Position numbers and translations under genes: made by a program. The notes beneath the pieces were generated by a model. The model was not told the origin of the DNA, did no database searches, and worked only from the letters and a program-made list of their open reading frames with translations. A DNA stretch of 64,000 nt from Salinivibrio kushneri (lineage in GTDB: Bacteria; Pseudomonadota; Gammaproteobacteria; Enterobacterales; Vibrionaceae), in assembly GCF_027286325.1 (NCBI RefSeq), contig NZ_CP114588.1:1761317-1825316 (forward strand), read 5' to 3'. Positions 28,468-63,356 of this stretch are shown piece after piece; the stretch's first letter is position 1; every line of letters begins with the position of its first letter.

Positions 28468-28495
28468 AAGCGCCATATTGGTTGATATGGCGCTT
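28468..28495. other. Strong hairpin between neuC and the glycosyltransferase
   Basis: AAGCGCCATAT (28468-28478), a 6-nt loop and ATATGGCGCTT (28485-28495) form a perfect 11-base stem. On the minus strand it is followed by TTTAAAAAT rather than a clean T run, so it may be a weak terminator, an attenuator or an mRNA-stabilising structure within the neu operon. Confidence 0.6.
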
Positions 28496-28613
28496 AGCTC
28501 TTTACCACAGGTTATTGCATAAACACACGTCAACATCTGGGCTTTCAACTAACTAAGCGATGCGCCAAAGGCGATTTAAAAAATCTTTCATAACAGATTT
28601 AATCCAATACTTT

Positions 28614-29753: not shown

Positions 29754-29754
29754 A

Positions 29755-30798: not shown

Positions 30799-31489
30799 TT
30801 CTCAATTCCTCCATTCTTTTTTCTACAACATCTAAATCCTGCTGAGTATCGATATCCGCAGACAAATACTCTGACATCACATACGGGAAGGTGTTAGACC
30901 TAGGAAAGTGGTTGTTGCGTTTAAACCCTGCTACCGAAAAAATATAGATAGCACCGTTTGGTTGAAAAGCACGTGGTAAGTCTTGCCGCCGTTGATACGG
31001 GGCATCATCGCTGAACAGCCCAGAGATCGACCCATCATATTGAGCAATGTAGGCTTTTACCGGTGTGTGTCGCGGCTCAAAGACGCTGATCACAAAGTCC
31101 GCATCTTTATCACGGTAAAGCGTAAACGCGTTATCTATACATTGTGCTGTTCTCAACGGTGACGTTGGCTGCAATAGCGTCATGACGTCACAATCTATCG
31201 CATGCTGCTCGAGCCATGTGATCGCATGGGCAATCACATCGATACTGCTCGCCTCATCCGATGCAAGCTCAGTGGGTCGCGATATAACTTGTGCGCCGAA
31301 TGCTTCGCTTACCCGGGCAATTTCTTCATCTTCGGTTGAGACAAACACCTGATCGATATACCAGCTACTTAACGCTGCCTCAATTGTCCATGCAATCAGT
31401 GGCTTACCATTAACGGGAAGTACGTTTTTTCTTGCCAACCCCTTGGACCCCCCACGGGCAGGAATAAGCGCAGCTGCTTTGTTTGGCAT
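30779..31489 (-). CDS. neuA: CMP-N-acetylneuraminate cytidylyltransferase NeuA
   Basis: NeuA activates sialic acid with CTP to CMP-sialic acid. The protein is about 236 aa from ATG 31489. A longer frame to 31588 adds a Gln/Ser-rich stretch without family similarity and is rejected. The family signature [15 protein letters not shown] is at residues 9-23, followed by [29 protein letters not shown] and a C-terminal DIDTQQDLD. It is the first gene of the neuA-neuB-neuC-glycosyltransferase operon, divergent from the ligase-like gene at 31656. Confidence 0.9.
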
Positions 31490-31655
31490 ATCAGGACTGT
31501 CTCTCGGGTCGTCTCTTATCCTTTTACTATAACTAATTCCAGCATCGCTCTCCACCTGACTCTGGCTCCAGGACTGACAAAAAAGCATATCGTGCTTGGC
31601 TTAGCTCTGTTCGTATTCCACCACAAAAAGTGCAACCAACAACCACATATGTATA

Positions 31656-41859: not shown

Positions 41860-42949
41860 AGTCGACAAACCTTTTTGTATTATTTGCATCTATATATTTA
41901 AAAAACATATGACTGGCTTGGAAATCACTGATGCTAGATAACTGAAGGAGAGCGATAATTTCTTTTTTTAAACTGTTAAAATCAGTTGAAATCTTACCTT
42001 GAAAGACTAAGTCTAGGGGATATATAGTTCCCCTTTCATTTTGATATTCATCTTTGTCATACGTAAACAATATTATTTTTTTAGATATCAATGAAAAGTC
42101 TAACCACACGCTAGAATAGTCAGTAATTAAAATATCCGTGTATTTAAGTACTAAATTCGTATTTATATATTTATCGCCATTTATAATCAATCCCTCATCT
42201 CGCAAAAGATCAAGTTCTTGAATCTCACTAAACTTGTGAGACCTAACCAATAGAACACAATTATATTTTTTTAGTGTTTCAACTAGTTCCGATTCATTTT
42301 CACTATCGAAAGGTGAAATGACATTCCCTTCATTCCAGGTACCACGATAAGTTGGCATCCAAGAGATTACCCTTCTTCCTTGGATCTCTTTGCTAAGTAG
42401 CAACTCCTGTTCATCTTTAAACCAAACAAGGTCATCTCCTCCTAACAAAATATCATTTCTAGGGAGGCCACTTAAAATGCACTTATTTGGATGAATCTGG
42501 AAGCATGCGGACATAACAGCTCGATCTAATTCGGAAGAACATACTAACCCCGAAAGAAGTCTACCTTCTCTTTGAAGAAACTTTTCATTGAATCTATCGC
42601 TATCCAGGTAACGTATTGTCTTTAAGGGAATGCCATGCCAAGTATTAAAAATCTTCCTACCATACCCATTTAGGAACTTCGGAATTTTATGATCGATAAT
42701 AAGCACATAACTCGATAGTAAATAATATTTGCTTTTAAGTCTCTCTAGAAAGCTTCCCGAAGGTTTTTCAGTTAGCATTATCACTTCAAATTCGTTATGA
42801 AAATACTTTAGGTACTGTTCCACGCAGACTAAGTTAGCATCATGTTTTTCGGTAGATGTATAAATACAAATTCTGTGTGTTTTCTTGATAAAAATAACAT
42901 CTAGAATAGACATTACAACATACTTAAATACTTTAATTATTGTTTTCAT
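41837..42949 (-). CDS. TagB/TagF-like CDP-glycerol glycerophosphotransferase (3 of 3)
   Basis: A 370-aa protein with NTWHGIPLKTIRYLD (about 97-111), LVCSSELDRAVMSACF, LPRNDILL, ISWMPTYRGTWNEGN, LVRSHKFSE (HK/HP motif) and ILITDYSSVWLDFSLISKKII (about 274-294) followed by YDKDEYQNERG. It is more similar in motif detail to copy 2 than to copy 1. It overlaps the capsule-synthesis-like gene upstream by 17 nt and the helical-repeat gene downstream by 23 nt. Three paralogues suggest separate priming and extension steps, as TagB and TagF do in Gram-positive wall teichoic acid synthesis; this division is inference. Confidence 0.88.
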   Translation of the reverse strand: MKTIIKVFKYVVMSILDVIFIKKTHRICIYTSTEKHDANLVCVEQYLKYFHNEFEVIMLTEKPSGSFLERLKSKYYLLSSYVLIIDHKIPKFLNGYGRKIFNTWHGIPLKTIRYLDSDRFNEKFLQREGRLLSGLVCSSELDRAVMSACFQIHPNKCILSGLPRNDILLGGDDLVWFKDEQELLLSKEIQGRRVISWMPTYRGTWNEGNVISPFDSENESELVETLKKYNCVLLVRSHKFSEIQELDLLRDEGLIINGDKYINTNLVLKYTDILITDYSSVWLDFSLISKKIILFTYDKDEYQNERGTIYPLDLVFQGKISTDFNSLKKEIIALLQLSSISDFQASHMFFKYIDANNTKRFVDYVLDKIK

Positions 42950-44348
42950 ATAACTTTGTTAACTGATCAAAGAAATTTAGTAAAAGAACATTATTCTTAG
43001 TAGTTTCATAATTCTTATACAACTTTCTGTATGCCGATGCCACTATACCTTGGTTACAGGACTTAGAAAATTCATTAACTTGGCTTTGCAATTTAGTGTG
43101 ATCTACATTTTGATTAGAAATATCTTTTAAATTCAGATTGTGTGAAAAACAATGAACTCCTGAGAAATCTCGATACCAAGCCATACCGAATGTTATAATG
43201 GGCTTACCTCCACTCAAAGCCTCCCATCCAACTGTCCCAGATATCGTAGCAACAACCTGACTTTGTTTCAGTAACTCATATGTTGATACACTTTTGCTAA
43301 CTAGTATCGCAGATTCTATTTTTGATAGCCTTTCGTAAAAAGCTCTGCCACGCATATAGTGCCCTTGTTTAGGGTTCTCCTTTACATATATAAACCAGCC
43401 TTCAGGGAGAATACGCGCTAAGTTTTCAATGGCTAACAGTTGGTCTGTATATAGTCCGCCAAGGCATGATGTTGTTAGTTCCGGCTGATAATGCAGAGGA
43501 AAGTACACGAACTTCTCTTCTAAATTAATATTTAGCGATTCAAAACTTTCCCCTTTACTTCTATAAAACTTTGATTCATTAGTAAAGGCTTTTGCACCAT
43601 AAAATTTTTTCTTTCGATGAGCAATTAGCTTTTTCATATCCTCTTTTGAAGATAGCTTACGTAAGATTTTTTTTGTCTTTCTCAGTGATAGTGATGTCTT
43701 ATTAAATATTCTGGTCATGTGATTATGACCAACTCTCCCTTCCATATAGAACAACTCTTTTTCAAACCGTTTCTCAAATGAGAAACCCTCAGAAGGATTA
43801 AATGTAACAAATTTACTATAACGGCCAAAATCGTCTATATTCTTGTAATGAAAAAATCGATTTGGAAGAATCGTTTGATATAGAATATTTTTATCTAGGC
43901 CAAGCTTACTAGCCAAATAGTAAATAATGAGATCAATTCCTTGATGTGGCGGATTATTGAAAACGACTTGAGTAATTCCTTTTGAGATAATTAAATTATA
44001 GAAATAGCTTAAGTAGTAGTTTATTGCACATAAATAATCATAATTAGAGTCTCCTTCAAACGCACTGATGACATTTTTTTCAAAAGAAAGCGAGTAACGG
44101 TCATAATTAAACAAGAACTCTCGAAAGTGCTTTTCAATGAATTCTTCTTCCCAACCCAAAGGTAACATGTGGTTGTTTTCAAACTCAGCACTTCGGGCTA
44201 CTAATTCAAAAACATTTGGCTGCCCACGTTTAGACACATGTACTGCGTTTAACCTCAACTCCTCACAAATAAAATCAATGTATTTTTTCTCCATTGGTTG
44301 AAAAAAACCCCAAAAAAGAGGGGTGTGTCTTTTATAATGTTCAATCAT
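42933..44348 (-). CDS. Capsule-synthesis-domain protein, possible glycosyltransferase (paralogue 1)
   Basis: A protein of about 471 aa. Its C-terminal half has the pattern of capsule polysaccharide synthesis (KpsC/KpsS-like) GT-B domains: FVYFPLHYQPELTT (about 285-298), YVKENPKQGHYMRG, VATISGTVGWEALSGGKPIITFGMAWY. The same ordered blocks occur in the protein at 50366-51910, so the two are paralogues. KpsC/S-type enzymes use CMP-sugars (CMP-Kdo). With CMP-pseudaminate made in this operon, a nonulosonate transferase is a reasonable hypothesis. The ATG at 44348 overlaps the stop of the DUF4910 gene as ATGATTGA and is preferred over a TTG two codons earlier. Confidence 0.72.
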   Translation of the reverse strand: MIEHYKRHTPLFWGFFQPMEKKYIDFICEELRLNAVHVSKRGQPNVFELVARSAEFENNHMLPLGWEEEFIEKHFREFLFNYDRYSLSFEKNVISAFEGDSNYDYLCAINYYLSYFYNLIISKGITQVVFNNPPHQGIDLIIYYLASKLGLDKNILYQTILPNRFFHYKNIDDFGRYSKFVTFNPSEGFSFEKRFEKELFYMEGRVGHNHMTRIFNKTSLSLRKTKKILRKLSSKEDMKKLIAHRKKKFYGAKAFTNESKFYRSKGESFESLNINLEEKFVYFPLHYQPELTTSCLGGLYTDQLLAIENLARILPEGWFIYVKENPKQGHYMRGRAFYERLSKIESAILVSKSVSTYELLKQSQVVATISGTVGWEALSGGKPIITFGMAWYRDFSGVHCFSHNLNLKDISNQNVDHTKLQSQVNEFSKSCNQGIVASAYRKLYKNYETTKNNVLLLNFFDQLTKLYENNN

Positions 44349-45645
44349 TGTCAACTCTCGATATTAACTCATTTTCTCTTAATTTATTTGCGATGTCACG
44401 TATATCAAAATAGTTATGAGAAGTTATATCTGCTATGTCTAATAATGAATTACTCCCATCAGAATACATTAATACATCACGCAGCACTTTAACTTGGCTA
44501 ACTGTATTTTTAGTGCTTACAGTTGGATACAAGTTTCTCTTTCCGAGTTGAGGCTCGCACATTACATTACAGCGGTATTGATAATCCGTCTCTAAAATTT
44601 CGATACATTTCTTATATTTATCATAAGACCCATAAAGGCCATCAGGACTAATATAAGATAAATTATCTAATGATGTGTGGTACTCATCATATTCGGCGTA
44701 TTTAGAACGCATAATGGAGACAACAGGGAGTTCAATTCCTGGGCTGGAGTATTGTCTTTCATCACTTCCTCTTTCAACAAATGAGTATTTCGTATATTTT
44801 GTCGACGTAATTTTCATTACGTACTCAGCTACCCTATCTGCATATGTATTATTATACTTACTTGGCATAAATGAGTAGGAATTGTTGTCACCTACACATG
44901 TAAGCACGAAACCGGCTTTTGTTCTATCTCTCATAACCTTAAAGTTTTTACTAAGGTAAGCAATTGAACCTATAGTCTCGGGAAGAAATAGTATTCGATA
45001 CGTATACCTGAGGTCTTTCATATTTTGAATCAACTTAGCTAGCTCGACCGCAAGTACGGGACCTGAAAGTTCATTATTAGCCATTGATGGATGACATATA
45101 TAGGTAGATAACAAAACCTCTTCTTTACTGCTCCCCTGTATCAATAACTCTCCATAATTCATAACACCATCAAAAAGTTCTGACTCAATCTTTACCCTTA
45201 CTTTTCTCTTGCTATTTTTTAGAAGTTCTTTTCTCTGGTTATGAGTAATACAAAAACCCCAACGTTCTTTGTAATAAGATGTTACGTATGGAACTGCGTC
45301 AGGTTGGTTTGGTAGCGAGTAAAGGTTACTATCCAATTGTTCAATCGTCATAACCTGGTCGACAGGTACTGAATATCCCATGACGTGAAGATTTAGTCCA
45401 GAGAAATCGATAAATACTTCTCCAGTCTCTAAATCTTGCACATAAGCTTGTTTTATTGACCATTCTTTAGGGACAGACCAATCAAAGACTTGCTCTCCTG
45501 TCTTAAATTCACCTACATGTAGGTTAGGAAGTTCGCGTTTTATAACATCTAATGTTTTTCTAACTCCCTCACCCGTTAAGCTACGGTTGATGGGGAAGAG
45601 CTCACAAGCTAATGAGTACATATTATTTGCATGATCCATCGTCAC
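44341..45645 (-). CDS. DUF4910/DUF2172-type aminopeptidase-like protein
   Basis: A 434-aa protein with the M28-like zinc aminopeptidase fold pattern typical of DUF4910. The early INRSLTGEGVRKTLDVI (about 19-35) is the hallmark of the family. An inserted beta-domain follows (DUF2172-like, about 60-140), then STYICHPSMANNELSGPVL (about 177-195, His and Asn/Glu ligands), FLPETIGSIAYL, VLTCVGDNNSYS, ERGSDERQYSSPG and SIMRSKYAEYDEYHTSLDNL (late His). A C-terminal winged-helix-like tail is present. From memory, the related C. jejuni protein Cj1295 is needed to add an acyl-derived group to pseudaminic acid on flagellin. It starts right after the AAC(3)-like gene; a GTG at 45645 with AAGG is chosen, an ATG at 45639 is possible. 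Confidence 0.8.
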   Translation of the reverse strand: MTMDHANNMYSLACELFPINRSLTGEGVRKTLDVIKRELPNLHVGEFKTGEQVFDWSVPKEWSIKQAYVQDLETGEVFIDFSGLNLHVMGYSVPVDQVMTIEQLDSNLYSLPNQPDAVPYVTSYYKERWGFCITHNQRKELLKNSKRKVRVKIESELFDGVMNYGELLIQGSSKEEVLLSTYICHPSMANNELSGPVLAVELAKLIQNMKDLRYTYRILFLPETIGSIAYLSKNFKVMRDRTKAGFVLTCVGDNNSYSFMPSKYNNTYADRVAEYVMKITSTKYTKYSFVERGSDERQYSSPGIELPVVSIMRSKYAEYDEYHTSLDNLSYISPDGLYGSYDKYKKCIEILETDYQYRCNVMCEPQLGKRNLYPTVSTKNTVSQVKVLRDVLMYSDGSNSLLDIADITSHNYFDIRDIANKLRENELISRVDND

Positions 45646-46416
45646 TCAGACCTTATTAGTTAGGAACCAAACATTCTTCTTAATTTCCTTCTCCAACAAG
45701 GAGTATGCGTCCGACGATGTAATAGATCCAATAGTACCTCGACCTATCTTTTGTTTTTTATAGTATCCTTGGGAAACAGCAACTGAGTTAAATCGTTCAA
45801 AGTTTGCCTCACTCCCTTTAATATCCATATCTCTCACCCAAATAACTGATTTTGCTTCTACTATGTTGTCACCCGCATATTTTTTTCCCACAAACGTTTT
45901 GTCAAAGCGGTAAGGTACAGAGAGTTCTCTTTCAACAAAATGTAAAAATGTTGATCCTGCATCGAAGTTAATATTTAATATCTTGCCATTTTTATCAAAA
46001 AATCTGCCAAAAAAAGCAGATTCGTCATAAGCGTTTTCTGGCAAATCTTGTGTCAAGTCTAAAGCTAAACTGCCGATGCATGCGACAGATATTGAGGGAT
46101 CATTACTTCTAATTGAACTTTGTAAGCAACGCACGTATTCAGCAAACATTCCACAATTAGAAGGTGAACTAATTGGGTTGTATATTTCTCCTGAAGAAAA
46201 GCTATACGTAAATGTAGGAACTGCAAGAGTTCCTTGATCACCAATTACAGAAAGTATTGCATCTAATATAATCTGTAGAGCTTCATCTTTATTTTTAGCT
46301 CCTTCAGGCATACCTAGATAGCCAACATTGCTATGGCAGAATAGTACGTCACCATTTTTAATTCCTACAGACTTAATCGCTTCAATCAGTTCCTGCTTAG
46401 TATACGTTGCTTTCAA
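45646..46416 (-). CDS. AAC(3)-family N-acyltransferase
   Basis: A 256-aa protein of the aminoglycoside 3-N-acetyltransferase (YokD) fold. Family blocks seen are DVLFCHSNVGYLGMPEG (about 23-39), GTLAVPTFTYSFSSGEIYNP (about 61-80), CGMFAEYVR, RSNDPSISVACIG (about 102-114) and an AGSTFLHFVE segment (about 153-162). Members in glycan loci, as opposed to resistance genes, are thought to acylate amino sugars. The directly adjacent acyl carrier protein suggests it takes its acyl group from ACP rather than acetyl-CoA. A resistance role is unlikely in this setting. It lies 4 nt after the ACP gene. Confidence 0.85.
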   Translation of the reverse strand: MKATYTKQELIEAIKSVGIKNGDVLFCHSNVGYLGMPEGAKNKDEALQIILDAILSVIGDQGTLAVPTFTYSFSSGEIYNPISSPSNCGMFAEYVRCLQSSIRSNDPSISVACIGSLALDLTQDLPENAYDESAFFGRFFDKNGKILNINFDAGSTFLHFVERELSVPYRFDKTFVGKKYAGDNIVEAKSVIWVRDMDIKGSEANFERFNSVAVSQGYYKKQKIGRGTIGSITSSDAYSLLEKEIKKNVWFLTNKV

Positions 46417-46420
46417 TCTG

Positions 46421-46654
46421 TCACCCTTTCATTTCTATGATTATTTCAGATAAACCATCAATTGTTGAAAAACGACGATCTTCAAACTGAGTTTCAGAGA
46501 ACACAATTGAAAACTCAGACTCACAATATTCTATTAGCATTATTACATCAAAAGAATCAATCAACTCTTGTTCGAAATAATTTTGTTGTGTGTCAAAAAC
46601 GCTTTGGCCTGACTGCTCTTGAAACCAAAGGATAAGCTTGTCTCTTACTTTCAT
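46421..46654 (-). CDS. Acyl carrier protein
   Basis: A 77-aa acidic helical protein starting MKVRDKLILWF, with the phosphopantetheine attachment motif in LIDSFDVIMLIEYCE. The serine after DS-type Asp (residue about 33) is the modification site, giving DSFD in place of the common DSLD. The longer frame to 46723 is rejected because it lies inside the upstream gene. It starts within 5 nt of the end of the cyclase-family gene. The specialised ACP presumably carries the acyl group activated by the ligase at 47944-49287 and delivers it to the AAC(3)-like enzyme next door. Confidence 0.88.
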   Translation of the reverse strand: MKVRDKLILWFQEQSGQSVFDTQQNYFEQELIDSFDVIMLIEYCESEFSIVFSETQFEDRRFSTIDGLSEIIIEMKG

Positions 46655-46658
46655 TATC

Positions 46659-47318
46659 TTACTCCTCAATTGCAAAGCATCGAACAGGAGCACCATCTCC
46701 ATCTTTAATCTTAAGTGGTGCAACGATTAACATGATCGTATCACATTGTAAGCTTCTGATGTCGACTAAGTATTCAACAATCACTACGCCTGCACCTAAT
46801 AGAATCTTATGATTAGGAGCATCTTTTTCCGCTCCTCTGCCGTTTAATGGGTTATCTGGTTGAGGGGTATCCAATGCAATTAGCTTACATCCATTGTCAA
46901 CTAGCCACTGGCATGCATCCTCTGAAAAAAAAGCATGGTCAGTATAATATTCATTGGTATTAAGCTTAAGATCCCAATCAAACCTAGCTACCAAGCGATC
47001 TGGACATTTGTCGTTTAAGCAAGTTCTGAGTTCATCTTCTGTGATCTCATGTTTATCAGGTAGTGATGAAAAATCGACTACCTTCGCCTGACCGTTTAAT
47101 TGAGAAAGAGGAATGTTTTCGACGGTTTCGCCTCCCGAAATAAAATGGCGGGGCGCATCTATGTGTGTGCCTGTGTGAGTACCGAGTACAATTTTCCGGG
47201 TTTCACGGTTTTCAATACCATGCCTACCCAGCTGGGTTGATTCAAAAAATGGATGCCAATGGGTAGCAAAGGTTTGCATGCCCTCTTCTAACACCATAGA
47301 TAAATCTGTAATTTTCAT
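46659..47318 (-). CDS. Cyclase/kynurenine-formamidase-like metal hydrolase
   Basis: A 219-aa protein of the cyclase family (PF04199 type). The metal-binding signature is HTGTHIDAPRHF at about residues 48-59, with a preceding DLS at the N-terminus and a later ALDTPQPDNP block. Relatives hydrolyse amides or esters, such as N-formylkynurenine, or act on small carboxylic acids. Here it sits in a one-direction string of small-molecule enzymes and may process an intermediate of the acyl group made by the aldolase. It is 1 nt after the VOC gene and almost touches the ACP gene. Substrate unknown. Confidence 0.82.
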   Translation of the reverse strand: MKITDLSMVLEEGMQTFATHWHPFFESTQLGRHGIENRETRKIVLGTHTGTHIDAPRHFISGGETVENIPLSQLNGQAKVVDFSSLPDKHEITEDELRTCLNDKCPDRLVARFDWDLKLNTNEYYTDHAFFSEDACQWLVDNGCKLIALDTPQPDNPLNGRGAEKDAPNHKILLGAGVVIVEYLVDIRSLQCDTIMLIVAPLKIKDGDGAPVRCFAIEE

Positions 47319-47319
47319 T

Positions 47320-47937
47320 CTATACCTCTATTAATTCTACTATTATTCCGGTGGGTGATTTGAGTAAGATGATTGATAGAGATTTACCATTAACTTCTAG
47401 CTTGAAAGCGTCAGATGCCCAAGATAAACTATCTCTAACTCGATTACTACATTCTTCAATATTTTTCGTTATAAAAGCAATAGATGTTATACCATTTAAG
47501 TCTAGATACTGCTCAGCTAGAGTTCTAGAACTCTCGGTAACCTCTATATCAACTCGCCATGCAGGAACTGGTCTTTTTAGGCTAACGCTATCACCTGTCC
47601 TTGTTAAACCAAGGTCCTCCCAAAACTGATATTCCAGGCTTTTCTTTCCTTTAGGAACCACTATCTCGACCATATTACCTTGGTGAAGACGTATACGATC
47701 CTGAACTCTGTCATATCCACTAAAATGGTCAATAACCTCAATATCATAAAAATCAGGATGACGGAACATATGAATATCATGACTATGGTTATAGTGTCTT
47801 AACAAATCATTTTTACTGGGGTGATTTAAAATATTCACATCAGAAAAGTCTAACAAGTAACCTTTTTTGGTAAGTAGGCTAATGACTTCTTCAGTATTTG
47901 AAACATTCCAAATAAAGTGCGAAAAACCAATTATCAT
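47320..47937 (-). CDS. VOC (glyoxalase/dioxygenase-fold) protein
   Basis: A 205-aa protein with two beta-alpha-beta-beta-beta modules as in the vicinal-oxygen-chelate superfamily. The first begins MIIGFSHFIWNVSNTEEVISLLTKKG (His7 a likely metal ligand), and the second has ITSIAFITKNIEECSNRVRD and ends SPTGIIVELIEV with the conserved C-terminal Glu. VOC enzymes include isomerases, epimerases and lyases working on enolate intermediates. The specific reaction cannot be read. Position between ligase and cyclase suggests it acts on a free or thioester acid in the same pathway. Confidence 0.7.
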   Translation of the reverse strand: MIIGFSHFIWNVSNTEEVISLLTKKGYLLDFSDVNILNHPSKNDLLRHYNHSHDIHMFRHPDFYDIEVIDHFSGYDRVQDRIRLHQGNMVEIVVPKGKKSLEYQFWEDLGLTRTGDSVSLKRPVPAWRVDIEVTESSRTLAEQYLDLNGITSIAFITKNIEECSNRVRDSLSWASDAFKLEVNGKSLSIILLKSPTGIIVELIEV

Positions 47938-47943
47938 TCTTCT

Positions 47944-49287
47944 TTACTCACGAACTATCGCATTCTTAACAATCTTTCCTGTTGCAGTTTTAGGGAAAGA
48001 TTTCACTACATATATTTTTTCTGGATATTGTTCCTTAGACAACCTAGATGTTAGAAAATCTCTAAACTCTTTCTCAGCATAGCTTTGATTAGGTAAAATA
48101 TACAAAATAGGCACCTCTCCCCAAAACGAGTGAGGTTCAGCAACTACTGCAGCCTCTTCAATAGTATCAGAAGACAACGCAGACTCTTCGATATATCTTG
48201 GGCTAATATTTTGACCACCTTTGATCACTAAGTCTTTCTTTCGCCCAGTAATAATTAAGTGTCCATCATCCAATTTCCCAATGTCACCTGTATATCTTCC
48301 TGTACCATCTGCATTTATATATCCAAGCATAGTCCATGGAGAATCAACCAAAACTTCTTCATCGTCTGTAAAAGAAATATTTACTCCATCAATTGGCTTT
48401 CCCACACCCTCAGTGTGTCCTTCCCCTGCTTTAGCACAAGATATAAAAAGAAGCTCGCTGGTCCCATAACTCTCTAATACTTCACATGAAAATTTTTGTT
48501 GGAAAATCTCTTTACTTTTACTTGGTAAAGGAGCTGTGCCTACAAATACTTTAGAGTTACTATTAGAAAGCCACGCAATAGCTTCTTTATCTCTTGTCAT
48601 TTTTGAAGACAATAATAACATTGAAGGACTCAGCCAAATCGAATTAGCCTTAGAAGAACAGTACTTCTTAAAAAGAACAGAAGCGTTTTGAGCAGAAAAA
48701 GTATCACTGATCACGACAGTACCGCCCGCTAAAAGGGGGGATAAAAACGTGTTCAAGATACCCGCCATATAAAAACGTGGCATCACGTGCATCATTTTTG
48801 TTTTTGCGTTCAGATCATTATGCTCATTAAACGCTTCACAACATCTAATTAAACCGTCAAGACTATGGCATACCCCTTTTGGTATTCCTGTAGTGCCTGA
48901 AGTAAAAGTAACCAAAGCCGTTGAACCTAACTCTGGTGACAAGGTTTCTTCTTCCCAACTTTTCAGTATTAGGTTTTGTCCATTTTTCAATACTGCACTT
49001 GGCCTAAAAATACTCAGTATCCTATCGGAGTAGTTATCAGAGTATGTTTCTGACAAAGGACAAACCACTACGCCCTTAGCGAAACATGCTAGTAAATGCG
49101 TATAGTATTCAAGAGGATCATCAACCGCTAAGCATATCCGCTTTCCTTGTGTTAATCCATTTTCTTCGAAGAAAGCTTCCATAAGTGCAATTTTACTCTT
49201 CAGTTCGCCATACGAGACTTTTAGCTCATTAATCTCGATGGCGACGCTTTGAGCGTCGCCTTTCAATATTTTGTCAATATCAATCAT
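47944..49287 (-). CDS. AMP-forming acyl ligase (ANL superfamily)
   Basis: A 447-aa adenylating enzyme that activates a carboxylic acid with ATP and loads it on a thiol. Motifs in order: ALVTFTSGTTGIPKGVCHS (about 122-140, P-loop), ESYGTSELLF (about 266-275), YTGDIGKLDDGHLIITGRKKDLVIKGGQNISP (about 330-362) and the C-terminal PKTATGKIVKNAIV with the catalytic Lys. At 447 aa it is shorter than typical acyl-CoA synthetases (about 500-550), as in ligases serving carrier proteins. The ACP three genes downstream is the natural acceptor. It overlaps the aldolase gene by 4 nt. Confidence 0.88.
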   Translation of the reverse strand: MIDIDKILKGDAQSVAIEINELKVSYGELKSKIALMEAFFEENGLTQGKRICLAVDDPLEYYTHLLACFAKGVVVCPLSETYSDNYSDRILSIFRPSAVLKNGQNLILKSWEEETLSPELGSTALVTFTSGTTGIPKGVCHSLDGLIRCCEAFNEHNDLNAKTKMMHVMPRFYMAGILNTFLSPLLAGGTVVISDTFSAQNASVLFKKYCSSKANSIWLSPSMLLLSSKMTRDKEAIAWLSNSNSKVFVGTAPLPSKSKEIFQQKFSCEVLESYGTSELLFISCAKAGEGHTEGVGKPIDGVNISFTDDEEVLVDSPWTMLGYINADGTGRYTGDIGKLDDGHLIITGRKKDLVIKGGQNISPRYIEESALSSDTIEEAAVVAEPHSFWGEVPILYILPNQSYAEKEFRDFLTSRLSKEQYPEKIYVVKSFPKTATGKIVKNAIVRE

Positions 49288-50345
49288 AGTTCTGCTTGTT
49301 CATTAACAAAGTAATTCTTATAACTCGGTTTCCAAGCTCCTTTGCTGCTATGAGCATCAGCGATTAACTTAGCATGGCGTTCAACTAATTCAATGTCTGC
49401 ATTGATAATATCTTCTGAGCATACAGCGGATATTAGTTGACGTGGGTCCACTCGATATTTTGTAGACATATCATGAATTATCGGCATATAACTAGAATGA
49501 AACAGAGCCATCCCAGATACAGTATCTATTGAAGTCAGTCCACGTTTCTCAATCATAGGTTTGATAAGCTCTTCGCCAATATCCATCACTTTGATTGGAT
49601 CGATATTGCCTTCTAGCCCCATTCGAGCTAAACAACCTAACATTTGTTCAGTCGTAGTATTACCTGCGCTGCGACCAAACCCCTGTAGGGAAGTATCAAT
49701 TATCGTTGCACCTGCTTCAAGTGCAGCTAATGCGTTCCCGATACCTAGGCCTAAGTTATTGTGACCATGAAAACCAATAACTGCATCAGACTTTTCAGCC
49801 AGTATTGCTTCTACATAAAGCTTAACTTCATTTGGTAACATCCCACCCGCAGAGTCAACTACATAGACGGCATCGACCCCCATTTCAAAAGCGTGTTTAG
49901 AAGCTAATGCAAGATCTTCTGGCTTTGACGCGTATGATTTCATGAAGTTAGCACAAGTCATCATACCTTTTGACTTAGCAGAGGCGACAAATGCTTCACT
50001 TTTAGGAAAATCTTCGATGGTCGAGCCAAGTCGAATAAAGTCCATATCATAGGTTTTTGCCATTTCTAAATGATCAAGCGTAGCAATACCTGGAATGGCA
50101 AACATACCCCATTTACCATTTTTCACAGAGTTAGCAGCGGACTTCATATACGTTTCATCAGATTCTAACGCAACGCCAATCCCTTTTTCTGTCGCGCCCA
50201 ATCCGACTCCGTGGCCGACTTCGATAAGTTCGAGCCCTGCTTCGTCAAGTGCAATAGCTATATCATCGGAGTTTTTCTTTGAGAACTGAAAGTCTATTTC
50301 ATAGCTTCCATCTCTGAGAGTGCATTCTAATATTTTTACATCCAT
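49284..50345 (-). CDS. DRE-TIM metallolyase, 4-hydroxy-2-oxovalerate aldolase-like
   Basis: A 353-aa TIM-barrel protein of the HMGL-like family. It has ILECTLRDGSYEIDF at residues 4-18 (catalytic Arg-Asp), FIRLGSTI, YVVDSAGGMLP, and the metal ligands in VIGFHGHNNLGLGIGNALAA (about 190-209), followed by IIDTSLQGFGRSAGNTTTEQ. This pattern is closest to DmpG-type aldolases, which split or form 4-hydroxy-2-oxo acids from pyruvate and an aldehyde. No partner dehydrogenase (DmpF) is present, so it may run in the synthetic direction to build a hydroxy-oxo acid. ATG 50345 is chosen for the AAGGA 7 nt upstream. Confidence 0.85.
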   Translation of the reverse strand: MDVKILECTLRDGSYEIDFQFSKKNSDDIAIALDEAGLELIEVGHGVGLGATEKGIGVALESDETYMKSAANSVKNGKWGMFAIPGIATLDHLEMAKTYDMDFIRLGSTIEDFPKSEAFVASAKSKGMMTCANFMKSYASKPEDLALASKHAFEMGVDAVYVVDSAGGMLPNEVKLYVEAILAEKSDAVIGFHGHNNLGLGIGNALAALEAGATIIDTSLQGFGRSAGNTTTEQMLGCLARMGLEGNIDPIKVMDIGEELIKPMIEKRGLTSIDTVSGMALFHSSYMPIIHDMSTKYRVDPRQLISAVCSEDIINADIELVERHAKLIADAHSSKGAWKPSYKNYFVNEQAEL

Positions 50346-50365
50346 ATTTAATTCCTTCACGTAGT

Positions 50366-51910
50366 TTAATTTCGCATATAATTTATCAACTGATCTCCGA
50401 CGAGAGTTGCATTAACTTCCCAATCAAATGTATCATCTTTTATAATTTTCTCGTATGGTCTACCAAGTACACCAGTCCCCATTTTTGCAACTAACTTTCC
50501 AACTTCCACTTGAAGTTCACCATGATCTATTTGGTAGGACAATACTTTTTCTAAATTACCAATATCTTCAAATTTAAACACGCCAGGTAAATTATTATAC
50601 CATGCCCACCCAAAAGTTATAACATTCTTACCGCCTGTTATGGCTTCCCACCCAGCAGTACCACTAATAGTAGCAACCAACTCACATTCCCTCATCAACT
50701 TATAAGTACTGGTATCAATAGGCACTAAATGAACATTATTAATTCCTTTCAGCCTCTTATAGAATGTTTCGTCACGCATATAGTGCTCTTGTTTTGGGTT
50801 TTCTTTAACTAGTATTCTCCACTTCTTTGGTAAAACGTCGGAGAGTTGCTCAATCGCAAGTAATTGGTCACAATACAACTCTCCTCCTAATGAAGAAGTA
50901 GTCAACTCAGGTTGCAAATGCAACGGAAAATAAACAAAAGGTGAGTCCATTGAACATGGATGTTCATTTAGCATTGAACGTTCAAAAAATTTTAACTTCT
51001 CCGAACTAATATACTTAGATAGGGGCGGCGTATTGGGATGTATGATCAATTTCAACTGAGATATACGTTTCAATATATTAAAATAACTAGATAAGCTAAT
51101 ATCCTCTCCCTTAATTTTGTACCAGATCATTTTGAATAGTATATACATTTCTGTGGGATGATCTATCTTACTATGTTTCTCTCTACGAAGATTACCATTA
51201 TAAGCTGGATAATAAACTGATCTTTTTCTAGTTAAATTACGCCTTAATAAATCAGTAAACCGTTCAAAAAAGCCTAATCGTTTCACTTCAATATTATCAT
51301 ACATATAAAAAAGGTCTTTTTCGAACTTGTTATCTATGACATAGGGGGACCAATTACTTTCTATCAGTTCTGAGGTTCTCCACTCCCCAAAATCTTCTTG
51401 CTCTTTAATAATAAAAAACTTGTTTGGTAAAATAGACTGGTAAAGTATTATTGTTTCGACATTTAATAATTTTGCCAACTCATAAAGTATTAAATCTGCA
51501 CCTTGATGTGGCATGCTAGTAAACATTACCAAATCTATCCGTCCACTAAGTAATTTATTAGAAAAATAGTTAACAAAAATATTGAATGCATTAACATAAG
51601 CATGAAACGAGTCTAAATTGTGTGAAAAGTATGTAAAGCGAAATTCGTATCTAGAATATTGTTCAATAAATTTATGTATGGCTTTTTTGTATAAAAAATC
51701 ATACTGCTTAGGAGAAATAAGACTACTCTTATATTTATAGTCATCAGAAAGTAAACCAAACTTAACAACCTCGTTAAGGTGAACACTGCTTCGCCTTGAG
51801 GTACCAAACCATTCTACAGGGAAAAAACCGTATTTCTCTGACATTTCATTAATTATCGTTTCAGAAATACTAGAAAAGCCCCATAACATTACATTTTTAA
51901 ACAAGGGCAC
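50366..51910 (-). CDS. Capsule-synthesis-domain protein, possible glycosyltransferase (paralogue 2)
   Basis: A 514-aa paralogue of the 42933-44348 product. Shared blocks in the same order are MPHQGADLILYELAKLL, LYQSILPNKFF, FEKDLFYM, FVYFPLHLQPELTTSSLGG (about 330-348), LVKENPKQEHYMRD, LVATISGTAGWEAITGGKNVITFGWAWY. It has a longer central region (about 230-310) than paralogue 1. The GT-B-like C-terminal half suggests a sugar transferase; CMP-pseudaminate is the obvious donor candidate. It overlaps the TPR gene upstream by 14 nt and is followed 20 nt later by the acyl cassette. AT-rich. Confidence 0.72.
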   Translation of the reverse strand: MPLFKNVMLWGFSSISETIINEMSEKYGFFPVEWFGTSRRSSVHLNEVVKFGLLSDDYKYKSSLISPKQYDFLYKKAIHKFIEQYSRYEFRFTYFSHNLDSFHAYVNAFNIFVNYFSNKLLSGRIDLVMFTSMPHQGADLILYELAKLLNVETIILYQSILPNKFFIIKEQEDFGEWRTSELIESNWSPYVIDNKFEKDLFYMYDNIEVKRLGFFERFTDLLRRNLTRKRSVYYPAYNGNLRREKHSKIDHPTEMYILFKMIWYKIKGEDISLSSYFNILKRISQLKLIIHPNTPPLSKYISSEKLKFFERSMLNEHPCSMDSPFVYFPLHLQPELTTSSLGGELYCDQLLAIEQLSDVLPKKWRILVKENPKQEHYMRDETFYKRLKGINNVHLVPIDTSTYKLMRECELVATISGTAGWEAITGGKNVITFGWAWYNNLPGVFKFEDIGNLEKVLSYQIDHGELQVEVGKLVAKMGTGVLGRPYEKIIKDDTFDWEVNATLVGDQLINYMRN

Positions 51911-53322: not shown

Positions 53323-54375
53323 TTATTCCTTTAATAGTTCCCAAGAAATAGCAGTGCCCTTGGATATATACTTTGAAGCAGTTCTTTCTAACACTGAGTC
53401 ATAATATTTAGGCATAAGACCAAATCCAGGACGAACGCTCCTTACATTTTCAGGAGTAATCCGTTCACCTTCCTTGATATCTTTGACAGCGTAAAGTGAA
53501 CGGCGGAACTTCACATTGCCTTTTTCAGCTTCAGTCCGTTCATAATTAACGTTACCCAGGGCTTGCCACGCCGTTGTCGTGTCTCGGCATAAAGCAGCAA
53601 GCTCCGCTGGCTCCAACGAGAAGCTATCATCAGCACCACCGCCGTTACGATCTAACGTGACATGCTTTTCGATTAAACAAGCGCCTAATGCGACAGAAGT
53701 GACTGCTGTCGCATTGTCAATGGTATGGTCAGACAGGCCCGAAAGCACATCAAAGCGCTCAGCCATGTCCGCGATGGTTCGTAGATTATATTGCTCTGCC
53801 GGCGCGGGATAACCACTGACACAATGCAGTACTACTAATTCTTGGCACCCATTGTCTTTCGCCGTTTTAATTGCGTCAGCAATCTCTTGTTCATTCGCCA
53901 TCCCTGTAGAGATAATCATGGGTTTGCCCGTTTGCGCGACCCGCTTAATAAGCGGTAAATCAATCACTTCAAAAGACGCAATTTTATAGGCCGGCGCATC
54001 CAGCTCTTCCAGTAAATCTACGGCGGTAAAATCAAAGGGAGAGCTAAAAATGGTGATATCCAGCTCTTTGGCTTTCTCAAACAGTGGTTTGTGCCAGTCC
54101 CACGGCATGTGTGCGCCTTTGTAAAGTTCATACAAAGTTTGCCCATCCCAAAGACCGCCATGAATTTGAAAATCGTCACTGTCACAGTCCAGGGTAATGG
54201 TGTCATGCGTGTAAGTTTGTAGTTTTATCGCATCGGCCCCCGCTTTTTTCGCTTCTTCCATGATTTGAAAGGCGCGGTTAATATCGCCATTATGGTTCGC
54301 GGACAGCTCTGCAATAATATACGGTGGATGATCTGGGCCGATTTTCCGGCCGTCTATGGTCATAAATGGGTTCAC
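53323..54375 (-). CDS. pseI: Pseudaminic acid synthase PseI
   Basis: PseI condenses 6-deoxy-AltdiNAc with phosphoenolpyruvate to pseudaminic acid. The 350-aa protein has YIIAELSANHNGDINRAFQI (about 19-38), AIKLQTYTHDTITLD, FSSPFDFTAVDLLEEL, YKIASFEVIDLPLI, GLSDHTIDNATAV, and the PseI-typical GGGADDSFSLEPAEL (about 238-252), then a C-terminal SAF domain. The LQTYT/SSPFD pattern separates it from the NeuB at 29755-30798. A GTG at 54375 with GAGG upstream is chosen. The higher GC content of this and the other pse genes contrasts with the AT-rich genes that follow. Confidence 0.93.
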   Translation of the reverse strand: MNPFMTIDGRKIGPDHPPYIIAELSANHNGDINRAFQIMEEAKKAGADAIKLQTYTHDTITLDCDSDDFQIHGGLWDGQTLYELYKGAHMPWDWHKPLFEKAKELDITIFSSPFDFTAVDLLEELDAPAYKIASFEVIDLPLIKRVAQTGKPMIISTGMANEQEIADAIKTAKDNGCQELVVLHCVSGYPAPAEQYNLRTIADMAERFDVLSGLSDHTIDNATAVTSVALGACLIEKHVTLDRNGGGADDSFSLEPAELAALCRDTTTAWQALGNVNYERTEAEKGNVKFRRSLYAVKDIKEGERITPENVRSVRPGFGLMPKYYDSVLERTASKYISKGTAISWELLKE

Positions 54376-54382: not shown

Positions 54383-55888
54383 TCACTGAATGGGGTGTCG
54401 AATGTAAGTTTCTTCGTCGACTTGTTGATAACTGGCTTTTTGGAAAAGCCGTTGCGATGGGATATTTTCTTTTAAGACGGTGGCGTGCACGGTGACATCG
54501 GGATGTATTAGGTTAATAATTGCTAACGCTTGCGCACCAATTCCCTTCCCATAACGGGTTGGATCAACAAAAATTGACACAAGATAATGCTCGGCGCGCA
54601 GTCGGTCTAGGCGTATAGCGCCCATTTTTTTTCCGCTATACCGTTCAACAATCATATAAAAGTAATCGTTGATAGCGTGGAGTTTTGCCGACATCCATGC
54701 GTAATGCTGCTCCCATGTGGGCGTACTGGGATTAAGCGCATATTTTCTAGTGTTAGGATGACATTGCCACTGATAAACTAACTCAATATCTTGTTGGCTG
54801 GACGCACGCTCAAGGCGATAGCCATTCACGTCATCACAGCGCAGTTGTTCGAGTTCAAACACCACCCTTTTTACACCACGCCCATCACACAATGCTAGGT
54901 TAGCAGACTTCAGCGCCTCCCACCGATTCAAAGTGGTTTGGTACGCGTGCAGTAGGCGAGTTGGTATCTCATCGAGCATCACTTTTATCGCAGCATGATG
55001 CTTAACCAGTTGCTCACAAACCATCTTTTGGTTATCAGCCAAGGGAACAAGGATATTGGGGAGCCCTAAGCATGCTCGCTCCCAGCTTGTGGTGCCTGGT
55101 GCGCCGATAGCGATATCATGGCTCATCATTAGACTGGCCATATCAGCCACAAAATCTACATGGTTGACATTGTCATGATTTGAGCACCACTGTTTTACCT
55201 CATGATAATGCGGCGCTCTTGGCGAGAGTAAGACCGTAAACGTTGCATTGACGTAAGGGTATAGAGCCTCTAGCACGTTGAGCGTGGCGTTAGGGGCATC
55301 GACACCGCCCATTGAGACAAGTACGCGGGGGACATGACGCGTCAAGGTTCGAGATAGCGCATTTTCCCTTTGTTGGAGAAATGCGCGAGACAGTAACGCA
55401 TAATCACTGCCTGCGAGTACGGTAGTGCCTGCTGTCTGATAGTCTGATGCCTCACGACCCAGCGTTTGATCTATAACTATATCCGCACTGTGAGTTCGCA
55501 AAAGATCATCAATGGCGACAATTTTACAGTTAAGCCTCGCGCGAACGATTTCATGCCACTGTTTTTCAATCGCATAGTGGTCGGTCACAACCACATCTGC
55601 AGCATGCACGTGATGAATAAAATCGTGCGCATCGTCGGGGATGGGCTTTGGCAGCCATGCGGCGTAGTCAGCATCGTGCGCCGGTTTCACGACTTGTTCG
55701 GGCGCCGTCAACGTGATGACGTTAAAACCCCGCTCACCGATAAACGCACGCATATCGCTTTCTAACGGTAAACACGCGAAGGTTATATCATGGCCATGGT
55801 TCGCTAACTCATCGGCAAGCACCAAGCATCGCATCACGTGCCCACTACCAATCCAAACCGACGCATCAACGCGAAATACAACTTTCAT
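54383..55888 (-). CDS. pseG: PseG-PseH fusion: UDP-sugar hydrolase and N-acetyltransferase
   Basis: A 501-aa two-domain protein. Residues 1 to about 350 are PseG, which removes UDP from UDP-6-deoxy-AltdiNAc: FRVDASVWIGSGHVMRC (about 5-20) holds the catalytic His in GSGHVMR, and GAPGTTSWERACLGLP (about 262-277) is the donor-site block. Residues about 355-501 form a GNAT domain, presumably PseH, which acetylates the C4 amino group; FVDPTRYGKGIGAQAL has the acetyl-CoA loop. The two reactions are consecutive (PseH then PseG), so the fusion may channel the intermediate. The ATG at 55888 is chosen over a GTG four codons earlier. Separate genes are the more usual arrangement. Confidence 0.9.
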   Translation of the reverse strand: MKVVFRVDASVWIGSGHVMRCLVLADELANHGHDITFACLPLESDMRAFIGERGFNVITLTAPEQVVKPAHDADYAAWLPKPIPDDAHDFIHHVHAADVVVTDHYAIEKQWHEIVRARLNCKIVAIDDLLRTHSADIVIDQTLGREASDYQTAGTTVLAGSDYALLSRAFLQQRENALSRTLTRHVPRVLVSMGGVDAPNATLNVLEALYPYVNATFTVLLSPRAPHYHEVKQWCSNHDNVNHVDFVADMASLMMSHDIAIGAPGTTSWERACLGLPNILVPLADNQKMVCEQLVKHHAAIKVMLDEIPTRLLHAYQTTLNRWEALKSANLALCDGRGVKRVVFELEQLRCDDVNGYRLERASSQQDIELVYQWQCHPNTRKYALNPSTPTWEQHYAWMSAKLHAINDYFYMIVERYSGKKMGAIRLDRLRAEHYLVSIFVDPTRYGKGIGAQALAIINLIHPDVTVHATVLKENIPSQRLFQKASYQQVDEETYIRHPIQ

Positions 55889-55901
55889 GATTCTTGCCAC
55901 G

Positions 55902-56597
55902 CTACTTGTTCGTATGTTTTAAGGCTGAAAATAGCGACTCGGCAATGTCCCAGTCTTCGGAGGTGTCAATATCTTGGACACGATGACGCGGTAAAAGCAC
56001 AGCCTTAGAATGCGGTGAGAAAATTGACAACTTATTGAAAAACGCACTGGCTTTGCCCCAATAGAACTGGCCTGCGTCGTGATACGCCTCTTCCAGATCT
56101 TGTGATCTCATTTTCTCCTGCTCTGGCGAGAACATAGACACAGCACCGTTTGCATCTAATTTAATTGCACGCTGGATCGGAAACGGGAAGGACGTGGCAC
56201 TAAACGCAAACTGGACGTTTTCATTGGCTAGCAACTGATAGCCCGCCTTGAGATCGTCAGCCTGAACAAACGGCGCAGTCGCATATAAGCAGCACACGGC
56301 TTCAATATTAAAACCTGCATCTTGGCACCACTGAATCGCATGGGCCATCACATCCATCGTGGTGGCATAGTCATCGGCAATGTCTGCGGGGCGCAAAAAC
56401 GGCACCTCGGCACCGTATTGCTTCGCAACATCGGCAATTTCCTGATCCTCTGTTGACACAATCACCTTATCAAAGCAGCCCGAGGCGATCGCCGCTTCAA
56501 TCGAATAAGCAATCATTGGCTTACCATGAAAGGGCTTAATATTTTTACGTGGTATCCGCTTACTGCCGCCGCGCGCAGGAATAATCGCTATATTCAT
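55902..56597 (-). CDS. pseF: Pseudaminic acid cytidylyltransferase PseF
   Basis: PseF makes CMP-pseudaminic acid from CTP. The 231-aa protein has [19 protein letters not shown] at residues 5-23, KPMIAYSIEAAI, VSTEDQEIADVAKQYGAEVPFLRP and the PseF-typical FPIQRAIKL and YHDAGQFYWG segments, ending VQDIDTSEDW. The tyrosine/glycine pattern AGQFYWG and the KPFHGKPMI block distinguish it from the sialic-acid NeuA at 30779-31489. It lies 1 nt after pseC and before the pseG-pseH fusion in a tight array. Confidence 0.93.
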   Translation of the reverse strand: MNIAIIPARGGSKRIPRKNIKPFHGKPMIAYSIEAAIASGCFDKVIVSTEDQEIADVAKQYGAEVPFLRPADIADDYATTMDVMAHAIQWCQDAGFNIEAVCCLYATAPFVQADDLKAGYQLLANENVQFAFSATSFPFPIQRAIKLDANGAVSMFSPEQEKMRSQDLEEAYHDAGQFYWGKASAFFNKLSIFSPHSKAVLLPRHRVQDIDTSEDWDIAESLFSALKHTNK

Positions 56598-56598: not shown

Positions 56599-57759
56599 TT
56601 ACTCCGTCAGTATCGCTGCTAAGACATCAATCACCGTGTCTTGCTGCTCATCGGTCATAGCATGAAACATCGGTAACGAGATGGCGTCTTGGTAGTATTG
56701 TTCAGCATGTGGGTAGTCGCCTGGACCAAAGCCGAGCTGCTGGTAATACGGTTGAGTGTGGACAGGAATATAATGCACGTTCACACCGATGCCTTGTTGC
56801 CGCAACGCATCAAATACCTGCTTGTGGGTCTTTGACAGCTTCGCCAATTGAAGGCGAACGACATAAAGGTGCAAGCCTGAATAGGTATCGTTTGATTGAT
56901 AAGGCAATACTAGGGGTAAATCTTGCAACTTTTCGTTATAACGAGCCGCAAGGCGGTGACGCGCACTGACAAACTGATCTACCCGCTGCATTTGGCTTAG
57001 CCCGAGTGCAGCTTGCAGCTCTGTCATCCGATAATTGTAGCCAAGCGCGACTTGTTGATAATACCAGTTTCCGTGGCTATCACCTTCCATCAGCAACGGA
57101 TCGCGTGTCACCCCATGACTGCGATACAGCGCCATCGACGTGGCCAAGGCGTCGTCATTGGTTACTGCAACGCCACCCTCTGCCGTCGTCACAATCTTAA
57201 CCGGGTGAAAGCTGAACACGGTAACATCTGAATACTGCCCACAACCGATTGGCTTATTCTGATATTTGCCCCCGATAGCATGGGAGGCATCTTCTATCAC
57301 TTTAAAGCCATACTCGTCGGCTAATTGCCCTATCGCTTGCATGTCACAGGACTGGCCACACAAGTGCACCGCAACCACCACTTTCGGTAGTGTGCCAGTC
57401 GCTTCCGCATGCTTGAGTTTTACTTCAAGTTGTTTGGGGCACAGGTTGTAGGTAGTCGGGTCGATATCGACAAAGTCCACCTCCGCGCCGCAATAACGCC
57501 CACAGTTGGCTGAAGCGACGAACGTAATCGGCGTGGTCCATAGTCGATCGCCCTCACCAAGCCCGAGCGCCAGACAGGCAATATGTAAGGCGGACGTAGC
57601 ACTATTGACGGCAAGCGCGTGCTTGGCGCCGGTGTACTCGGCAATAGCTTGCTCGAACGCAGGGACCTTTGGCCCCTGGGTGAGAAAATCCGAATGCAGC
57701 ACGTCAACCACTGCATCGATGTCATCTTGCGTGATGTCTTGCTTGCCGTAGGGGATCAT
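56599..57759 (-). CDS. pseC: UDP-4-amino-4,6-dideoxy-AltNAc aminotransferase PseC
   Basis: PseC is the PLP-dependent aminotransferase of the pseudaminic acid pathway. The 386-aa protein has the DegT/DnrJ/EryC1 layout: MIPYGKQDI start, HALAVNSATSALHIACLALG (about 47-66), VIEDASHAIGGKY and TVFSFHPVKIVTTAEGG with the PLP-binding Lys of FHPVK at about 185. The C-terminal VNVHYIPVHTQPYYQQLGF block is typical of PseC. It overlaps pseB by 4 nt (ATGA), so the two are translationally coupled, as in many pse operons. Confidence 0.95.
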   Translation of the reverse strand: MIPYGKQDITQDDIDAVVDVLHSDFLTQGPKVPAFEQAIAEYTGAKHALAVNSATSALHIACLALGLGEGDRLWTTPITFVASANCGRYCGAEVDFVDIDPTTYNLCPKQLEVKLKHAEATGTLPKVVVAVHLCGQSCDMQAIGQLADEYGFKVIEDASHAIGGKYQNKPIGCGQYSDVTVFSFHPVKIVTTAEGGVAVTNDDALATSMALYRSHGVTRDPLLMEGDSHGNWYYQQVALGYNYRMTELQAALGLSQMQRVDQFVSARHRLAARYNEKLQDLPLVLPYQSNDTYSGLHLYVVRLQLAKLSKTHKQVFDALRQQGIGVNVHYIPVHTQPYYQQLGFGPGDYPHAEQYYQDAISLPMFHAMTDEQQDTVIDVLAAILTE

Positions 57760-58781
57760 TGTTTCGTGGCCACCGTAAAATTAGGATCGATGTATTGCTT
57801 TATCTTTTCCCGTAAGCTGTCAACGCTTTCCCATTGCTCATTGGTACCCGAGTTATATTTAAACCCAAACGGCACTTTCTCCGCTTTATGGTGCGTCATG
57901 TACTCTTGCTCTGTGTGGGTATGAGACACAGACGGTAAGATTGCATAGTAATGACCAAGATCAATGGTATTGAGTGAATCGGTATCGGTGATCATTTCTT
58001 CGTGCAGCTTCTCGCCAGGGCGAACACCAATGACTTTTACCTCACAATCAGGCGCGACGGCTTTTGCCACATCCAAAATTTTATAACTTGGGATCTTAGG
58101 GACAAAGATTTCACCGCCCAGGTGATTTTCCAGTGCGTACATCACCATGTCCACCCCATCTTGTAGCGAGATATTAAAGCGGGTCATGTCTTCATGGGTG
58201 ATCGGCAGGACCCCCTCATGGCGCTTTTTCAAAAAGAACGGGATCACTGAGCCACGAGAGCCCATGACGTTGCCATAGCGCACCACACTGAACTTTAGGT
58301 CACGTGAACCTTTAATATTGTTTGCCGCCGTAAACAGCTTATCTGATGCAAGCTTGGTCGCTCCATAGAGGTTTATCGGTGCACAGGCTTTATCGGTAGA
58401 AAGTGCAACCACATTGTTCACCCCACATTTCAATGCTGCGTTAATCACGTTCTCCGCGCCATCAATGTTGGTGCGAATACATTCTGTTGGGTTGTACTCC
58501 GCCGTATCAACCTGCTTGATCGCGGCCGCGTGGATGATCACATCCACCTCTTCGCACGCTTGCACCATGCGCTCCCTGTCGCGCACATCACCGATGAAAA
58601 AGCGCAGCTGGGGATATTCGCTTTGCGGATACAGCTGTTTGAGCTCAAATTGCTTTAGCTCATCACGCGAATAGATAATGATTTTTTTTACGTCGGGGTA
58701 GCGCGTAAGAATGGTCTGGATGAACTGCTTACCGAACGAGCCGGTTCCGCCGGTGATAAGGACTGTTTTTTTATTTAACAT
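57756..58781 (-). CDS. pseB: UDP-GlcNAc 4,6-dehydratase (inverting) PseB
   Basis: PseB starts the pseudaminic acid pathway by 4,6-dehydration and C5 epimerisation of UDP-GlcNAc. The 341-aa SDR has LITGGTGSFGKQFI at residues 8-21, IIYSRDELKQFELKQ, IHAAAIKQVDTAEYNP, ALSTDKACAPINLYGATKLASDKLF (catalytic Tyr and Lys near 141-145), and VRPGEKLHEEM. The catalytic Tyr is kept, in contrast to the Met of the membrane-bound WbpM-like enzyme at 34803. It follows tagD by 25 nt in operon 2. Confidence 0.95.
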   Translation of the reverse strand: MLNKKTVLITGGTGSFGKQFIQTILTRYPDVKKIIIYSRDELKQFELKQLYPQSEYPQLRFFIGDVRDRERMVQACEEVDVIIHAAAIKQVDTAEYNPTECIRTNIDGAENVINAALKCGVNNVVALSTDKACAPINLYGATKLASDKLFTAANNIKGSRDLKFSVVRYGNVMGSRGSVIPFFLKKRHEGVLPITHEDMTRFNISLQDGVDMVMYALENHLGGEIFVPKIPSYKILDVAKAVAPDCEVKVIGVRPGEKLHEEMITDTDSLNTIDLGHYYAILPSVSHTHTEQEYMTHHKAEKVPFGFKYNSGTNEQWESVDSLREKIKQYIDPNFTVATKQ

Positions 58782-63282: not shown

Positions 63283-63356
63283 CGTTTTATTCTCTTGGCT
63301 CAAACCTAAGAAAGGGTATCACGGGGATTGGAGAACGACTAGCGGCTGCACATAGC

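Follow-up and report, generated by a model that had tools for sequence, protein, structure and literature searches.

Serotype, phage recognition, and immune recognition depend in part on the N-acyl groups of pseudaminic and legionaminic acids. The flagellar glycan of Treponema denticola, for instance, is reported to bear an acyl group of the trihydroxyhexanoyl type. The N5-acetyl group of pseudaminic acid derives from N-acetylglucosamine (GlcNAc), and N7 is acylated by PseH. In Campylobacter jejuni, a Cj1295 mutant loses the 5-N-(2,3-di-O-methylglyceroyl) derivative of pseudaminic acid, and the authors of that work proposed that Cj1295 cleaves the N5-acetamido group (PMC3068675). Here we describe a seven-gene cassette with a Cj1295-family gene in Salinivibrio kushneri, within a 64,000-nucleotide stretch of contig NZ_CP114588.1 (positions 1,761,317 to 1,825,316; hereafter the window, to which coordinates refer unless another locus is named). 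The cassette occupies the minus strand at 44341-50360 and consists of seven co-directional open reading frames (ORFs) encoding, in order, an aldolase, an AMP-forming acyl ligase, a vicinal oxygen chelate (VOC) protein, a cyclase-family hydrolase, an acyl carrier protein (ACP), an AAC(3)-like N-acyltransferase, and a DUF4910 protein. From sequence comparisons we consider it fairly probable that these genes form an accessory acyl-exchange module for pseudaminic acid, in which a front end (aldolase, VOC, cyclase, ligase, and ACP) would build an acyl group and an exchange tail (DUF4910 and AAC(3)) would put it in place of the N5-acetyl.

A preliminary description of this DNA, made from its letters alone, reported seven tightly packed same-strand genes of these families 3 kb downstream of PseB-PseI, and our analysis bears this out. 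All seven ORFs are present, with neighbors overlapping or at most 6 nt apart. Pfam and NCBIfam scans confirm five of the seven families, while the ACP and VOC proteins, which lack a Pfam match, are recognized by a conserved serine and an AlphaFold2 structure model, respectively. The PseB-C-F-GH-I block was verified, and 2.96 kb of head-to-tail genes separate the end of PseI (53323) from the aldolase start. The aldolase (49284..50360; PF00682, PRK08195) likely starts at the ATG at 50345 and is followed by the ligase (47944..49287; PF00501 and PF13193), the VOC protein (47320..47937), the cyclase-family metal hydrolase (46659..47318; PF04199), and the ACP (46421..46654), whose start was moved from the listed 46723 by comparison with homologues and now lies 4 nt after the cyclase gene, as it does in them. 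The AAC(3)-like gene (45646..46416; PF02522) and the DUF4910/DUF2172/HTH_47 aminopeptidase-like gene (44341..45645; PF16254) complete the set. Because neighboring genes overlap or nearly touch, PseB through the cassette is likely one transcript.

To place the cassette among other genomes, one genome per species was scanned for the aldolase and the flanks of matches were annotated. The complete set, its gene order unchanged, follows PseI directly in Vibrio coralliilyticus (L007) and at a distance of 1.8 kb in Grimontia hollisae (L008); it is also present, with one methyltransferase inserted between ACP and AAC(3), in a Myxococcales metagenome-assembled genome (L009). A search with the VOC protein brought up a fifth copy, which belongs to a distant gammaproteobacterium (L087) and is divergently oriented beside PseGH-PseI and a methyltransferase. 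Since the identical seven-gene order recurs in four other genomes, the arrangement is not due to chance. In other phyla, a split copy and partial sets also neighbor genes of the Pse and legionaminate types: one locus has all seven genes, divided into two blocks by PseC- and PseF-like genes (L167, genome G536), another has six beside Pse genes (L010), and two NeuB/NeuC/CMP-synthetase loci carry the five front-end genes but neither AAC(3) nor DUF4910 (L013 and L028). The VOC search matched just 3 of 369 genomes, the window genome included, and nothing in plasmids; one VOC match (L006) was ruled out as a cassette by its neighboring genes. Plasmids searched with the cyclase protein returned solely general PF04199 proteins at <60% identity.

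The cassette has Pse genes next to it in L007, L008, L010, and L087, and a PseI search of five further cassette-bearing genomes found a NeuB/PseI-family member in every one (49-52% identical in two, weaker in three). The preliminary description had named cassettes lying consistently away from amino-sugar pathways as what would speak against it; what we observe is linkage to nonulosonic-acid genes in independent lineages. Recurrence beside such sugar genes in unrelated bacteria makes the cassette look like a portable way of altering surface sugars. The same linkage bears on which sugar is modified. The capsule locus has genes for other sugars and sequence does not fix the target, so the cassette might acylate a different capsule amino sugar, but we regard this as quite improbable, because the linkage tracks PseI/NeuB-type genes across lineages and the DUF4910 mutant data concern pseudaminic acid (PMC3068675).

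The cassette is accessory. Its aldolase clade was found in 4 of 349 Pseudomonadota (505-618 bits, versus at most 267 for the remainder) and in 2 of 247 genomes of the family of V. coralliilyticus. Only one of eight genomes of the window's own genus carries the cassette, PseI being present in all eight, and two genus relatives carry the window's pse block (PseI 90 and 82%) with no cassette after it. GC content at third codon positions is 0.27-0.34 in the cassette versus 0.44-0.57 in the pse genes. The aldolase is under strong purifying selection, since the window and V. coralliilyticus proteins are 92% identical while just 33% of four-fold degenerate sites match.

In the front end, the aldolase is, like DmpG and BphI, an HMGL-like TIM barrel with metal ligands, and it keeps Arg16, Asp17, His198, and His200. 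It passes the PRK08195 cut-off (276.5 bits versus 229) and fails the equivalog cut-off for 4-hydroxy-2-oxovalerate aldolase (TIGR03217; 244.8 versus 286 bits). An alignment of 40 members from nonulosonate loci with 44 catabolic-like members revealed Tyr20, Phe87, and His288 in 40/40 of the former, where the latter have His (43/43 readable), Leu (44/44), and Tyr (44/44). The catabolic members L060, L075, and L086 carry H20, L87, and Y290, matching BphI numbering, so that the cassette enzyme differs from BphI by His20 to Tyr, Leu87 to Phe, and Tyr290 to His. Four further columns separate the groups without exception (Asn138 for Phe, Lys141 for Met, Tyr143 for His, and Arg230 for Ala). The aldolases of nonulosonate loci are a clade apart from the catabolic enzymes.

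In BphI, Y290F/S variants lose stereocontrol, and L87N/W combined with Y290F inverts the product to 4R (PMC3962088). Because the clade alters both of these sites and adds charged residues, its acceptor is probably different from that of BphI and likely polar, and its product possibly has the other C4 configuration. With its active site so remodeled, the enzyme should not, on this comparison, be read as an ordinary DmpG acting on pyruvate and acetaldehyde. A Pfam scan found no DmpG communication domain (PF07836) in the window aldolase, and no DmpF-like or other acetaldehyde dehydrogenase partner was seen among the neighboring ORFs read. Nor was a second DmpG-like gene seen in the window genome, where two other PF00682 genes score far better or are longer and by size are of other types. 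Fold and family names alone would allow the aldolase and cyclase to be stray catabolic genes of the meta-cleavage type with no role in sugar synthesis. This is highly improbable given the lack of an acetaldehyde dehydrogenase partner among the neighboring genes read, the residue signature, the absence of PseI from all 44 catabolic-like loci, and profile scores that part the groups both in the Pseudomonadota scan and between loci (at least 449 bits for L007-L042, at most 371 for L043-L086).

The two proteins that follow the ligase are probably enzymes, judging from a complete metal motif in the cyclase and conserved residues in the VOC protein. The cyclase scores 101 bits against a PF04199 cut-off of 23, has PDB relatives, and shares with the kynurenine formamidase/isatin hydrolase family the motif HxGTHxDxPxH (here HTGTHIDAPRH), with His170 and Glu182 invariant; it falls far below the arylformamidase equivalog TIGR03035 (77.1 versus 223 bits). 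The VOC protein has no credible PDB sequence match. Its AlphaFold2 model (predicted local distance difference test score 92.5) shows paired beta-alpha-beta-beta-beta modules, the two-module VOC/glyoxalase fold it has in common with human GLOD4 (Foldseek template modeling (TM) score 0.68), although identity is only 13%. His7, Glu67, and Glu201, candidate metal ligands, are invariant across its homologue alignment. Oxidative decarboxylation of the kind performed by 4-hydroxyphenylpyruvate dioxygenase was set aside for this protein, as, on our reading of the alignment, the second module has no His where a ligand normally stands. The ACP has weak NCBIfam matches and keeps the serine of its DS phosphopantetheine site in all eight homologues.

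The exchange tail links the cassette to Campylobacter. The DUF4910 protein matches PF16254 (334 bits), PF09940, and HTH_47, its family profile matches PDB 3k9t, and the cassette profile reaches Campylobacterota homologues with E-values down to ~1e-190. His185, Glu223, and His323 are kept. Residue 191, which we take to be the position of the bridging Asp of the dinuclear site in the M28 motif, is Asn here and in 45 of 52 homologues; the M28 profile PF04389 gives 21.0 bits against a cut-off of 21.3. Published work on Cj1295 (PMC3068675) makes N5-deacylation the likely role of this protein, a role that the preliminary description had left open. The AAC(3)-like protein, a relative of YokD and AAC(3), scores 94 bits for PF02522 and stays under the resistance equivalog cut-off (67.7 versus 270 bits), and the YokD-type motif RSNHP reads RSNDP, with Asp at that position in 33 of 45 homologues. 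In the split copy, an AAC(3)-like protein (L167:11417-13063) is extended at its C terminus by ~280 residues, and its gene adjoins a divergent DUF4910 gene. Among 20 Campylobacterota loci centered on DUF4910, AAC(3)-like genes lie near in 19, a ligase in 13, and PseB or PseC in many, and none has the aldolase, cyclase, or VOC genes. The tail is shared with these loci, and the aldolase/VOC/cyclase front end looks new relative to the Campylobacter set, as had been suggested.

Taken with the linkage to nonulosonate genes, this absence lends partial support to the earlier idea of an acyl cassette. What we observe in favor of the acyl-exchange reading is the set of genes present, the conserved active-site residues (intact for the most part), the recurring nonulosonate linkage, and the clade-specific aldolase site; that the aldolase-derived acid is what gets transferred, that the steps run in the order given below, and that N5 is the site are inferred. 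We hypothesize that the DUF4910 amidase would strip the UDP-GlcNAc-derived N5-acetyl from pseudaminic acid, and that the aldolase would join a pyruvate-type donor and a polar aldehyde into a 4-hydroxy-2-oxo acid for tailoring by the VOC and cyclase-family enzymes. The ligase would then adenylate the tailored acid and load it on the dedicated ACP, from which the AAC(3)-like enzyme would transfer it to the free N5 amine. Exchange at N5 is predicted because N5-acetyl comes from GlcNAc and N7 is served by PseH, and the cassette adds a putative deacylase and a second acyltransferase. The NeuB/NeuC loci L013 and L028, with neither tail gene, would fit acylation at the other amino group; a different acyltransferase could act there.

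Several observations weigh against this proposal. First, many clade aldolases belong to nonulosonate loci with neither ligase nor ACP, and in some of these they carry a fused Rossmann-like domain; the product of the aldolase may therefore not be an acyl donor in every case. Second, the cassette has no reductase to handle the 2-oxo group. Third, L010 yielded no VOC gene and that of L028 has diverged strongly (33 bits), and the short contig of L009 carries no pse gene. Finally, the hydrolase activity of the DUF4910 protein is not assured, because Asn191 replaces the bridging Asp. The first of these points, together with a Campylobacterota tail that works without aldolase, VOC, and cyclase, favors an alternative in which ligase, ACP, AAC(3), and DUF4910 acylate pseudaminic acid with an ordinary acid, and the other three enzymes make a separate product such as a small 3-deoxy-ulosonic acid that serves as a polysaccharide building block in its own right. 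We think this unlikely: aldolase, ligase, and cyclase stay with ACP in loci from several phyla, even in L013 and L028, and the two supposed pathways would be interleaved in the order aldolase-ligase-VOC-cyclase-ACP.

The aldolase clade itself extends beyond the cassette. A Rossmann-like domain is fused or adjacent to the aldolase in L012, L014, L018, L020, L024, L027, L036, L039, and L040 and encoded by separate genes in L037 and L038; archaeal loci (Hadesarchaea and Prometheoarchaeum) are among them. This ~300-residue partner is Rossmann-like in a structure model with a TM score of just ~0.4, and a PDB sequence search with the fused C-terminal domain found no match. Methyltransferases of one family accompany the aldolase in L009, L013, L014, L024, L039, L087, and L167. 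These companions point to a group of acids of aldol origin that some hosts would reduce or methylate. More tentatively, nonulosonate loci of bacteria and archaea may have in common a dedicated family of aldolases in which the His/Tyr dyad is exchanged. These enzymes would use polar aldehydes to form 4-hydroxy-2-oxo acids with a stereochemistry other than that of BphI, as N-acyl precursors for sialic-acid-like sugars, and the seven-gene cassette would be the family's portable ACP-dependent form.

Upstream of the cassette, all on the minus strand, lie PseI (53323..54375; TIGR03586, 525 bits against a cut-off of 340), a PseG-PseH fusion (54383..55900; TIGR03590, 275 against 154), a PseF-like CMP-sugar synthetase assigned by homology and position (55902..56597), PseC (56599..57759; TIGR03588, 574 against 424), and PseB (57756..58781; TIGR03589, 535 against 408). 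PseB, PseC, PseG, and PseI pass their NCBIfam equivalog cut-offs, and the PseH part of the fusion is weak (31 bits against 93). Two minus-strand PF05159 capsule-synthesis proteins bracket the cassette (50366..51910 upstream, 42933..44354 downstream) and are possible transferases of the modified sugar. Genes related to the downstream one also occur close to the cassettes of L007, L008, and L009. A second nonulosonate pathway at 27456-31588 comprises NeuA, NeuB (374 bits, just below the cut-off of 400), NeuC (above its cut-off), and a possible sialyltransferase-like gene. The capsule region is flanked by two UDP-sugar dehydrogenase genes that resemble each other closely (20970-22136 and 62116-63303) and could be recombination sites. 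Elsewhere in the genome a second PseI is reduced to a 104-residue 3' stump between hisIE and icd (contig ~1868358-1868669; L184:7859-8170), at the site where another member of the genus holds a full pse locus (L183:5367-10918); this other pse locus therefore appears to have been deleted.

With a compact, portable front end that can be spotted by the signature of its aldolase, acyl diversity would become predictable from sequence data. The clade would also provide a naturally occurring family of enzymes that form C-C bonds and have an active site similar to that of BphI variants inverted in the laboratory. Our literature search, on aldolases with pseudaminate and on ACP-based sets, found no published description of the front end, many subscription papers being beyond its reach. 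Shewanella oneidensis sfmABCDE, like the cassette, combines tailoring genes for flagellin modification with a NeuB-type gene, but these encode a thiamine pyrophosphate enzyme, a reductase, a methyltransferase, and an ATP-grasp protein and include none of the cassette families (PMC3765264). The C. jejuni flagellar locus Cj1295-Cj1308 is closer: there too, judging by the Campylobacterota loci, DUF4910 and an AAC(3)-like enzyme, often with a ligase and ACP, stand beside Pse genes, and the window likewise has its DUF4910 protein by Pse genes with an AAC(3)-like transferase and ACP alongside. The difference lies in the aldolase/VOC/cyclase front end, which the 20 Campylobacterota loci read do not have; the acid transferred in C. 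jejuni, 2,3-di-O-methylglycerate, probably originates from another front end. We would class the cassette as a variant of the acyl modification of pseudaminate known from Campylobacter, set apart by its front end and aldolase clade.

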